DNA of 64,000 nt from Micromussa lordhowensis (lineage: Eukaryota; Cnidaria; Anthozoa; Scleractinia; Lobophylliidae): contig OZ026597.1 in the NCBI GenBank assembly GCA_964020085.1, forward strand, positions 1,228,313 through 1,292,312, given 5' to 3'. Position numbers and translations under genes: made by a program. The notes beneath the pieces are model-generated. The model ran no database searches, was not told the DNA's origin, and was given only the letters and a program-made list of their open reading frames with translations. The first letter of the stretch is position 1. Every line of letters begins with the position of its first letter. This document shows positions 11,741-15,756 of this stretch, in pieces.

Positions 11741-14700
11741 ATGAAGCAGGTGATTTTCATACTACTGGTGCTAATAGTAATTCCTGTGGCTTTTACAAGT
11801 AAGTATTACCTCGTTATTACTTTGTTGTATTTTACAGTTTGAACTGCCTGGGCTAGGCGTTGGCAGCCGCAAAGGGCTTAGTGCCTTGTTGATCCGCATC
11901 GGGGTTCAATACAAATATCACACGGCACTACTACGTTTTCCTTGAAATCTGGCAATGCGTTTATAAGATTTTGAGTAATTATATGCACAGAACCAGGCAT
12001 AACTTTAGCTAGCGAATATTAATCCTTGAGATGATTGGTCCGGCTGCTAAATTGTGCATCAAGAACGTATTTTTGTTCGATCCTGAAAGCTGCAATACCT
12101 GCTATTTGTTTTTTGGAAAAGCGACCTGATCCTAAATTTGTGATGCAGTTTTTTCAGTTCACTAATTAACTATGGATTACTGAAATAAAACTTTCTGTAA
12201 CAATTTTCATTGCAATTTTAAGTTTGACTAATACGCCTCAAAACTTTCGGGAGAGGTTGCAGCGGTGAGTTGATTGTTTCCAACGCGTATCTGTGCTGCC
12301 ATCCCAGCCTGAAGAAAACTACCTTGAAATTTTCAACATACTCCCATCTTTCCAATGCGTTTGGTTTTTTTCTCGCCTGTTATTTCGCGCCACCTAAACA
12401 TCTCTTACGGTGGTTTGGTAATTTTCGGCGACAGGCAAAAACAGGTTTCGCCAATTGAGACGCTAATCACAGTGGCGTCGGCGGTTGCCTCTAGATGTCA
12501 GCAGATGTAGGGATTTCCTTCTTGAAAAGTCGGAAAAACATCGGACGTCTTCATAAAGGCTGTGTCGGCGTCAACCGATCGATTTGAAGCGCCGGTCAAG
12601 CACAGAATGTCGCGTAATTTTATGCATTTTCCCCAGATTTAAGGCTTCCTTGTTGCAGTTTATTTCTTTTTTACAGGCATAAAATCATGCGACAGGGCAA
12701 ATCCAGCTTGAGCAAACTTGAAAGATATTTAAAAACATTCAGCACTGGGTTTCCTAGGTATTGCTCCCTTTTGTCAGCTTTTCATTTTTATTTGCAGAAA
12801 GTTAGGCCGGATTCCAAGTGGTATAGGGATTAGGGACTTGAGAACGGCAAGAAGTTAAAAGTGGGGAGCACGGGTTTCCGCAGGCGGTCATTTAACAACT
12901 TGACGACAGTTTTTCATGCGTCTGTCCTGTTGTTGATCATGAATTTCGTTTTTGTCAAAACAATGTTATGACGAAACTCGTTGTCAATAACAAGACAGAC
13001 GCACGAAAAACTGTCGTCAAATTGTCCGCTATCGCTCGTTGACGCATCGCATAAATTATAAATTCTTGTGTCTATCCGCTTATTGACAATGAAAAATTAG
13101 CCGATGAGCGCGCGAAAATTCCTGCAGTTATTGTACAATATATGGAAGCGGAAAAATTTTCCCATTTCTATTTGAAGATGAATTGCGTCACAACATTAGC
13201 TGTCCAAAATTTTCTGAATTAACCACGTTTTGTTGATTTGTTATTTTGTTTCCATGATTCCCCGGTTTTAACCGTCCGGGAACATTTCTCACTTGGCGAT
13301 GTATTCTCAAAGAAAGTAGTTCCTCAACCAGTTCGGTTGTTTGACAAAGAGAAGCAGTTTTTTAATTAACTTTTGTGCAAACCCTTTCCACAGAAATGTT
13401 GCCACAGTTCTCAGTCCTTAAAGAAATGTATCTTGGAAACATAGATTATGGCGGACTTTATAGCGACCAAGACGTGAAACAGTACCTTTTTAAGGACCTT
13501 AACAAGCGCAAGTTACCGGAAAACGCCACATGCATACTGCGCATGAGTGCCGTGTTAAACGTCACAACACAGGAGCCTGAGAGCCAGCAAGGCTTGAAAA
13601 ACTACTATTACTTTCATGAACGAAATGAACTCTTAAACTATCTGAACAAGATGTATGGAGCACCCGACCAGTCCAACAAGACCAAAGACTTCAGTGGCAA
13701 AGTTGGAATAATAGCCTTCAAAGTCAGTGGCAGCGAGGCGAGTGAAGATTGCAGTGTTTTGCTGTGGAATGGGAACGGGTTTCATCAGGGGAAAGGTCCT
13801 AAGTATTTCCAGTCCGCTCAGTTGTGGGCTGCTCCTACAGGTATGAATTATTCAATTAATAACGAGTTATTGTTTGAATTATTGGAGAGAAAAAAAATTA
13901 GGAAGGAAGCAGAATCGAAAGCGAGTGATAAGGTGACGCAACCTTCTTGACCTCTCTTAAACTTTCAATCGTTTGAAACCCCTAAGTTGGGATTCTTAAC
14001 AGTTTATGTTCTATTTGAAATATTTGGTTATTTATTTACAGTGTCCCCAATTAGTACAACAGTGCTAAATACATATGACACTTAAATAAAGTTATTATTA
14101 TTATTATTATTCGTTGTTGTGAAGTATGATGACTGATTTTTGCACTGAGTCTTATTAAATTTGCACTGAGTCTTATTAAATTTGGATGACTGATTTTTGC
14201 ACTGAGTCTTATTAAATTTGGATGGGAACTATCTGTCAGAGGGGTCCATCAAAAAAGAATGATATAACAAAGTGCCAGCACAGTTCTCTCACTAGCTGAA
14301 TTTATAGCACGCAAATTTTTAGCGAAGAGAACACCGAATTCCTCGCAACACCACCTCGTACCAACATTTCTCGTAGCACCACTTACCAAGTGATTCTTCG
14401 AAGCTACACCAATAACTAGGACCGCAAACAATAAAAACTTCTTCAAGAACAAACAATAGCAACTTCTTTCAAGAAGAAACAATAAAAACTTCTTTCAAGA
14501 TCACTGATGATGATCAAAATTATAGCTACTTATACTAACATCTGTTTCGTTTTTTCTTAACACTTCAGCTGGCTGTGTGATCGATGTTAATGTACAGCAG
14601 TCTGGTGGATCTACCTGCTTCCCGTCAGAGTCTCAAGTTGAACTCAGATCTGGAAGGAAGATTCCCATCAGAGACCTGGCTATTGGTGACACAGTAAAGA

Positions 14701-15756
14701 CGTTCACTAAGGAAGGTCAGGTTGTGTTCAGTCCAGTCATTACATTCCTAGAGCAAGAACCTGACTACAAAGGTAAGATTTGACTGGCATGAATAGATCT
14801 CTCGGTTATCGTTCGTTCGTTTATTTAGTCTCCAAATCTATTGCACCCCAAAATACCTGTCTGATAATTATATATTTGTCTGATAAATGTAAACGTCCCC
14901 TCCAAAAAAATCTCTTGGCTTTTCCAGACCCAAGGAACAGAGACCTCTACAAGTAACAACAATTTTCTCTTTGATGGAAGCGCATAAGTGTATGCAATTA
15001 TTTTAGTTTAAACCCACAAGATAAGCGGTATCTTTTGTAGGAGGGAGGAAGGAGAAGGGGAACTGGGGACGAGCAAGTCTTCCTATGCTAACAGTAGAAA
15101 AGATTCCATCCCCAAATACCGCAATCCGGCCTCCGCTTTCACTTGAGTACTCATTACTTTGTTATGATTTTATTTTGATTGAAAGTAAACATTATCTAAA
15201 TCTTTTCTTCCTCTAATGATTTTCAGGCCAATTTATTACCATCACGACTGAAAGCAAAACCCAACTCACCATCAGCGAAGCTCATCTTATTTTCAAAATT
15301 GAATTTTTGCGAGGACCCCGAGGAGAGCATACCTCCCGCTCAGTGCATGCGTCCCAAATCAAACCCGGGGACAGCATTCACGTCCACGCTCCACAATGCC
15401 GGGGGCCCGTTACTGACATGGTGGTAGCGGTCTCGACAGTTGAAAGGCAGGGGGCCTTTGCGCCAGTTACCCAGGAAGGGACCATGATAGTGGATGGAGT
15501 CTTGGTGTCGTGTTATGCTGACATCGCGGACCACGATTTGGCTGACTCTCTTATGGCACCTCTAAAGAGCTTTTATAGCTGGGCCCCTCAGATGCTAGGA
15601 GCCAGGGGAAAGTACGCACACGGTTACCTAAAACGGGTCCTGCGTCCCATTGGAACAAGGGTCTTTGGAGAGGAGATGTTCTATCAGGGGCCAGACAGCA
15701 AAGTCATGGGAGGAAAGGAGACGGTCACCTCAGTCTTGGACTGGGATAACGAGTGA
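11741..15756 (+). CDS. Secreted Tae4-like amidase domain fused to a Hedgehog-type Hint (Hog) domain
   Basis: Four exons, 11741-11798, 13394-13840, 14569-14772 and 15227-15756, all GT-AG and all joined in phase 1, give 412 residues. Residues 1-19 are a signal peptide (MKQVIFILLVLIVIPVAFT). Residues about 25-167 match the Tae4 amidase effector fold: NATCILRMSAVLN with Cys66 at the nucleophile position, GKVGIIAFKVSG, LLWNGNGF and QLWAAP in the expected order. The His expected just before the LLWNG strand is Ser140, and no Asp follows it at the expected spacing, so amidase activity is doubtful. Residues about 185-335 form a Hint domain: nucleophile Cys185 in STCFPSESQV, SEAH (Ser253/His256) as the TxxH block, and SCYA (Cys332). 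A C-terminal region like the Hedgehog sterol-recognition segment follows. The Asp that activates cholesterol in Hedgehog is Glu230 (TFLEQEPD). Inferred: a secreted precursor that self-cleaves near residue 184 to release the N-terminal domain. N-glycosylation sequons (NAT, NVT, NKT) fit secretion. Confidence 0.85.
12893..13140. repeat. Fold-back element, copy 1 of a local family
   Basis: GACGACAGTTTTTCATGCGT (from 12902) pairs with its near reverse complement ending near 13019. The following bases to about 13140, including TTATTGACAATGAAAAATTAGCC, recur inverted at 17695-17815. It lies in intron 1 of the Tae4-like/Hint gene. Confidence 0.8.
13950..14111 (+). repeat. Probable retroelement 3' tail with (ATT)n microsatellite
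   Basis: The stretch ending in AATAAAGTTATTATTATTATT (AATAAA at 14085-14090, then ATT repeats to about 14111) looks like the 3' end of a non-LTR retroelement or SINE. It follows directly after the read-through stop of exon 2 of the Hint gene, so it could also act as a polyadenylation site for an intron-retained transcript. Confidence 0.4.
14126..14226. repeat. Short tandem repeats, unit about 23-36 bases
   Basis: TTTGCACTGAGTCTTATTAA occurs three times in about 100 bases, partly preceded by GATGACTGAT. It sits in intron 2 of the Tae4-like/Hint gene. Confidence 0.8.
14415..14505. repeat. Short tandem repeat, unit about 28 bases
   Basis: Three diverged copies of AACAATAAAAACTTCTTTCA-type sequence follow each other in intron 2 of the Tae4-like/Hint gene, ending about 60 bases before the exon 3 acceptor. 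Confidence 0.7.

Follow-up and report, generated by a model that had tools for sequence, protein, structure and literature searches.

In the stony coral Micromussa lordhowensis we analysed a stretch of 64,000 nt (contig OZ026597.1, positions 1,228,313 to 1,292,312), which we call the window. It contains a gene for a Hog-domain protein whose N-terminal domain is derived from the bacterial effector Tae4 and is catalytically non-canonical; we do not class the protein as a Tae4 amidase. According to the best explanation, which we propose with modest confidence, this is a coral Hog gene with a module of bacterial origin, which would release itself from the precursor, would probably be tagged with a sterol, and would serve in binding instead of amide hydrolysis.

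The gene consists of four exons and lies on the plus strand, as do all of its features given below. Exon 1 (11741..11798) harbours the start codon and a signal peptide (residues 1-19; peak of hydropathy over nine residues, 4.0) and ends at the phase-1 donor GTAAGT. Exon 2 (13394..13840, 447 nt) is a symmetrical 1-1 exon and contains the entire Tae4 domain (residues 20-168), which has no internal intron and is confined to this exon. Exon 3 (14569..14772, 204 nt), also a symmetrical 1-1 exon, encodes a linker with Cys171 followed by the start of the Hint domain, while exon 4 (15227..15756) encodes the remaining part of Hint, a tail resembling a sterol-recognition region, and the stop codon. Joined in frame, the exons give a protein of 412 amino acids, and all three introns (1,595, 728 and 454 nt according to the coordinates) have GT-AG borders and are in phase 1. 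This confirmed the arrangement of signal peptide, Tae4-like domain and Hint domain in four phase-1 exons, which had been proposed from the letters alone (the sequence-only reading).

Full-length homologues were found in Oculina patagonica (P0001; 77%), Montipora capricornis (P0005) and Acropora millepora (P0006), and three more sequences (P0002-P0004) are of this kind. At NCBI, the names among the proteins of the three named corals are ‘tiggy-winkle hedgehog protein-like’, ‘uncharacterized’ and ‘desert hedgehog protein-like’. Since Oculina belongs to Vacatina, and Montipora and Acropora to Refertina, the fusion should be at least as old as the common ancestor of these two suborders, unless it spread later. 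The expectation that the same architecture exists in other cnidarians was thus borne out in three named corals. Five of the six homologues align with the window protein across all three exon junctions and P0001, the annotated model of which is without exon 1, across two; hydrophobic N-terminal starts are likewise present in P0002-P0006. The contig carrying P0002 (413 aa) is 1,383 nt long, and those carrying P0004 (415 aa) do not exceed 2,098 nt. These contigs are too short for introns like those in the window and therefore resemble spliced transcripts of other species, from which we infer the joining of exon 2 to exon 3 that the sequence-only reading had wanted to see in transcripts. Its view of a secreted animal protein agrees with the introns, the coral homologues and the signal peptide, secretion being predicted from the latter alone. 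The gene is real: an artefact, either a wrong model merging two adjacent genes or bacterial contamination, has a negligible probability in view of the introns with their phase-1 junctions, the recurrence of the full-length protein in six further sequences (for two of which the contigs leave no room for introns), and the position of the window inside a 46-Mb contig.

Further searches extended the family mainly at its N-terminal part. With the N-terminal domain, 17 additional exon-2 reading frames with 45-91% identity were detected, and a search with the full-length profile added only two sequences, both of them Hint fragments. No named anemone was among the nine proteins of the profile search, which needs shared five-residue words, listed no hedgehogs, and leaves absence elsewhere unproven.

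The relationship of the N-terminal domain to Tae4 emerged from several comparisons. In a Pfam scan of the whole protein, the Tae4 family PF14113 was matched with E 1.8e-5 and 25.2 bits, slightly below the cut-off of 27, and exon 2 scanned alone reached 28.0 bits. Using phmmer against the sequences of the PDB, Tae4 (4j30) was retrieved at E 6e-7; WD40 matches in this search, which were short single stretches, and antibody-chain matches were rejected. A profile of 26 related sequences (the three named corals P0001, P0005 and P0006 plus others, which we call coral-type by similarity) retrieved 4j30 at 2.1e-10 and Drosophila Hedgehog (6td6) at 5.5e-30. At an E-value of 0.1, 22 members of this alignment match Tae4 and nine match Hint, and by reading the N-terminal domain is present in 23 of the 26. 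For the comparison with bacteria, 46 loci were collected by exact matching to a DNA pattern of the Cys motif, five open reading frames shorter than 110 aa were dropped, and 41 were aligned; conservation of Cys, Arg, Met and Ser in this set is by construction, and the catalytic His lies outside the pattern. In hhalign, 24 coral-type sequences (the window plus 23 proteins; all counts given for them are sequences, not species) and the 41 bacterial Tae4 sequences aligned at 98.2% with E 3.5e-14 over 133 columns. In addition, comparison of predicted models recovered the Tae4 fold, and the likeness extends across the full domain and includes the CxxRMS nucleophile motif and the LWNG motif. Both profile and predicted structure thus support homology to Tae4, in agreement with the resemblance noticed earlier. 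That the domain belongs to the NlpC/P60 or CHAP type in general and is only similar to Tae4 is very unlikely. The window protein differs from Tae4 by its signal peptide, introns, sequons and Hint fusion, and by the loss of the catalytic His.

Catalysis by Tae4 depends on a Cys-His-Asp triad (PMC6277958), which in StTae4 is composed of Cys44, His126 and Asp137 (PMC3759425). The catalytic His is present in 40 of the 41 bacterial sequences, the exception being a gap in a short open reading frame (L008). All 24 coral-type sequences have kept the nucleophilic Cys (Cys66 in the window protein) and none has the His, the place of which is taken by Ser in 16, Gly in five and Asn in three of them. In the window this residue is Ser140 (13753..13755). 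Which residue pairs with the bacterial His depends on the alignment (Ser140 in two alignments, Asp138 in another), and at neither of the two places does any row contain His. Moreover, the ten residues before CxxLLW are free of His in 23 of the 24 rows; in P0005, the exception, a His is located several residues ahead of the Cys of this motif, distant from both candidate places. On the other hand, the pair His150-Gln151 (13783..13788) is kept in every coral-type sequence, six residues after the Trp in 23 of them and eight residues after it in one. Counting from the shared Trp, Gln151 corresponds to the position of Asp137 in StTae4, and His150 is located one residue earlier. Thus, none of the coral-type sequences has an intact standard triad, and yet three polar residues (Cys66, His150 and Gln151) never vary.

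A second peculiarity is the N-glycosylation sequon N63-A-T65, which ends immediately before Cys66 (13522..13533 for the sequon and the Cys together) and is found at this place in 22 of the 24 sequences. Overall, three to five sequons per domain, as potential glycosylation sites, are present in the coral-type sequences (mean 3.4) and zero to five in the 41 bacterial ones (mean 1.6). The absence of the His together with a sequon touching the nucleophile speaks against the Tae4 amidase of the sequence-only reading, and judging from the alignments the N-terminal domain has most likely ceased to act as a standard amidase. Of the catalytic residues expected of a domesticated amidase effector, the His is missing here.

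How the remaining conserved residues are used can be explained in two ways. In all 24 sequences, the domain has no cysteines other than Cys66 and Cys139, and Cys139 directly precedes the position of the lost His in the phmmer and hhalign alignments. Both observations would fit a disulphide bond between these two residues, locking the module in a purely structural or ligand fold. This possibility, which we regard as tentative, is a form of the best explanation and does not exclude it; against it, Cys171 of the linker, kept in all seven aligned full-length sequences, could pair with Cys139 and thereby free Cys66. The main rival, kept alive by the invariance of both of its residues, is a rewired and still active amidase, in which Cys66 and His150, near the third triad position, would cut peptidoglycan, making the protein a surface-tethered antibacterial enzyme. 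The invariance of Cys66, His150 and Gln151 does weigh against a mere binding role, because it could equally reflect an active site retained in altered form or a structural role. Furthermore, the third residue of Tae4 triads is described as variable in place (PMC6277958), and the animal protein Dae2 as antibacterial (PMC11347951). However, an active enzyme would have to dispense with the His found in nearly all of the bacterial sequences and to tolerate a sequon directly ahead of its nucleophile, and we consider it rather unlikely.

The C-terminal part is a complete Hint domain of the Hog type, as the sequence-only reading had stated. It matches PF01079 in Pfam with E 3e-46 and 158 bits (cut-off 29.7), and phmmer retrieved Drosophila Hedgehog (6td6) among the PDB sequences at 1.9e-20. 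The Hint fold was also recovered at the level of the predicted model. By alignment to Hedgehog, Cys185 (14616..14618) corresponds to Cys1 of Hint, the nucleophile of self-cleavage, Glu230 (14751..14753) occupies the place of the general base D46, and His256 (15283..15285) corresponds to His72 of the TxxH motif, which here reads SEAH. Cys332 (15511..15513) in the SCYA motif is the counterpart of a conserved Hedgehog Cys, presumably Cys143. All eight family members considered for Hint (the window and P0001-P0007) retain Cys1, His72 and the SCYA Cys. On the basis of these residues and the Hint anatomy, the predicted formation of a thioester is well supported. The domain is followed by a tail (15523..15687) which model and alignment liken to the sterol-recognition region of Hedgehog. 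It comprises two putative helices, which span residues 324-345 and 350-368 of the modelled Oculina orthologue (pLDDT of the block about 56-72), and His368-Gly-Tyr370 is aligned with HWY of Hedgehog.

The genome of M. lordhowensis (581 Mb, 1,383 contigs) contains at least one Tae4 place and at least four Hint genes. Two other Hint domains, on C7 and C15, have Hedge-like exons upstream, as judged by eye. On the minus strand of C10 (L055, 1765-2193 and 260-964), a WSC domain (PF01822, 30.6 bits) precedes a complete Hint, which occupies one open frame and has His at position 46; according to order and strand, the WSC exon probably belongs to the same gene. Two more Hint proteins, P0025 and P0026 from the searches for homologues, have the similar motif NVNxKKDSxCF before Hint, which is in one open frame, as well as His46 and a His in place of the Tyr of the second tail helix. 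The window protein is distinguished from Hedgehog ligands by the Tae4 domain at its N-terminus, where the Hedge domain is missing, and its Hint is split by an intron, whereas Hint lies in a single open frame in each of the three further genes of this kind that the genome yielded.

The thioester may be resolved by a sterol or by water. D46 is described as the general base in the attack by the sterol, and cholesterolysis in Hedgehog is lost with D46A (PMC13060885); a Hint structure with D46H also exists (6tyy, according to the entry title). The sterol-recognition region of Hedgehog is a helix-loop-helix, in which the Tyr of the second helix is needed and can be replaced by Phe (PMC7242414). In the coral family, position 46 is Asp in six of the eight members; the window has Glu and P0003 has His. 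Cys1 is preceded by Thr in six members and by Ser in two, compared with Ser and Gly in the two hedgehogs of this genome. All eight have Ser in place of the Thr of TxxH, as does the WSC-linked Hint but neither of the two hedgehogs. In the tail, a His and a Tyr are aligned with HWY in all eight members, with Gly or Lys in place of the Trp, and the His of the first helix of hedgehogs is changed to Asp in seven. In comparison to Hedgehog, the family thus has Thr or Ser before Cys1, Glu, Asp or His at position 46, and HGY or HKY for HWY.

Several of these exchanges argue against a sterol tag, above all in the window copy: Glu at position 46, Thr instead of Gly before Cys1 (though this residue is Ser in the hedgehog on C15), Ser replacing Thr69, Gly replacing the Trp of HWY, and the Asp in the first helix. 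It is conceivable, albeit doubtful, that Hint performs hydrolysis only and that the Tae4 module is released in a soluble form without lipid. Such an outcome would be in line with Glu46 and with His46 in P0003, considering the effect of D46A, and either hydrolysis or ligation is described as possible for Hint domains that do not splice (PMC7242414). Nevertheless, the Asp46 of most family members and the two-helix tail with the Tyr required in Hedgehog are in favour of lipidation. According to alignment and model, sterol transfer is likely in the family as a whole, with less certainty in the case of the window copy.

Based on these observations, the best explanation can be formulated as follows. 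A Tae4 peptidoglycan-amidase domain would have been acquired from bacteria and kept as a single symmetrical exon. The precursor would enter the secretory pathway, where Hint would convert the peptide bond that precedes Cys185 into a thioester, and attack by a sterol (or water) would free the Tae4 module. The released module would most likely carry a C-terminal sterol ester holding it at membranes, and it would act at the coral surface by extracellular binding of peptidoglycan or of a cell-surface ligand, not as a standard amidase. There are precedents for its parts: an inactive toxin domain is described as an extracellular signalling molecule in teneurin (PMC3482391), RipD, according to the title of 4jxb, is a non-catalytic NlpC/P60 protein adapted to peptidoglycan binding, and a choanoflagellate Hog is joined to a cellulose-binding-like domain (PMC2362128). 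A bolder proposal, which we think somewhat unlikely, is that the protein is a second hedgehog-like factor, in which Hedge was replaced by a disarmed toxin fold taken from bacteria that is cut free by Hog, anchored by a sterol, and senses, at the cell surface, fragments of bacterial walls or a coral partner.

The transfer of the Tae4 domain from bacteria is suggested by the sequence comparisons, in which all named animal hits, within a limited search, were corals. A eukaryote described as having acquired Tae4 laterally is Giardia muris (PMC7641422). Among the 46 bacterial reading frames, those of the GHATLWNG type (L044, L004, L018) score highest against the coral profile, ahead of the HIDLW type of Pseudomonas. 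This hints at GHATLWNG-type proteins as nearer relatives of the coral domain, in a sample picked by one motif. It counts against the proposed origin that in 398 Pseudomonadota genomes searched with the coral profile at E 0.001, only one, the centre genome that already matched, gave a match, and no donor lineage emerged. Of six genomes reached through the loci, four were matched by the profile at E 1, with no better than 0.01 in one of these, and a tblastn search of plasmids with the coral-type domain gave no Tae4 match. In a Planctomycetota metagenome-assembled genome (L034, 2884-4893, plus strand), a Tae4 domain heads a 670-residue protein with a long C-terminal part.

An earlier description of a Tae4-Hint protein was not found in the literature searched, which consisted mainly of titles and beginnings of abstracts. 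Several known systems resemble it in part. The dae genes of animals are of bacterial origin, AIG1 is a GTPase domain and not a bacterial cell-wall domain, and teneurins are not known to have a Hog domain. Like tick Dae2 (PMC11347951), the window protein is an animal-borne homologue of a bacterial Tae domain with a signal peptide for secretion. Dae2 is described as antibacterial; the window protein belongs to another Tae family, has lost the His and carries a Hint, for which no mention was found with Dae2. With the coral AIG1/GiMAP-Hint proteins (PMC3723955) it shares the combination of an immune-studied domain and a C-terminal Hint. Tox-GHH of teneurins is likewise a toxin domain of bacterial origin, which is catalytically inactive and extracellular in animals (PMC3482391), but its fold is a different one (HNH/EndoVII). 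Similar in architecture are the cnidarian Hog proteins described in 2008, which are secreted and have novel N-termini, reported there to be without similarity outside Cnidaria (PMC2362128). One such N-terminus, common to Nematostella and Acropora, has at least three conserved cysteines (PMC2362128). The gene described here and the WSC-Hint gene, which is richer in cysteines, are candidates for it, or it may be neither of them.

In the remaining window, an exon of the upstream gene (9391-9906, plus strand) contains a stretch, RGSPVIV...HYMVV, which by eye is similar to C39-type cysteine peptidases; this exon had no match in Pfam or NCBIfam, and nothing convincing in the PDB. Downstream, five open frames with C2 domains are clustered (16829-17254, 19816-20868, 23524-24456, 26475-29618 on the minus strand, and 33672-34907 on the plus strand), several of them with a hydrophobic stretch and synaptotagmin-like by eye. 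A forkhead transcription factor domain is encoded in a single open frame at 52815-53837 (plus strand).

With this gene, the N-terminus of one coral Hog protein is given a molecular identity. In two coral suborders, a single gene combines two themes, the domestication of bacterial toxins and self-cleavage in the style of Hedgehog. Together with the WSC-Hint in the same genome, the cellulose-binding-like Hog (PMC2362128) and the coral AIG1-Hint (PMC3723955), it makes testable the idea that Hog domains might be used more generally to release and anchor domains with an immune or glycan-binding role.

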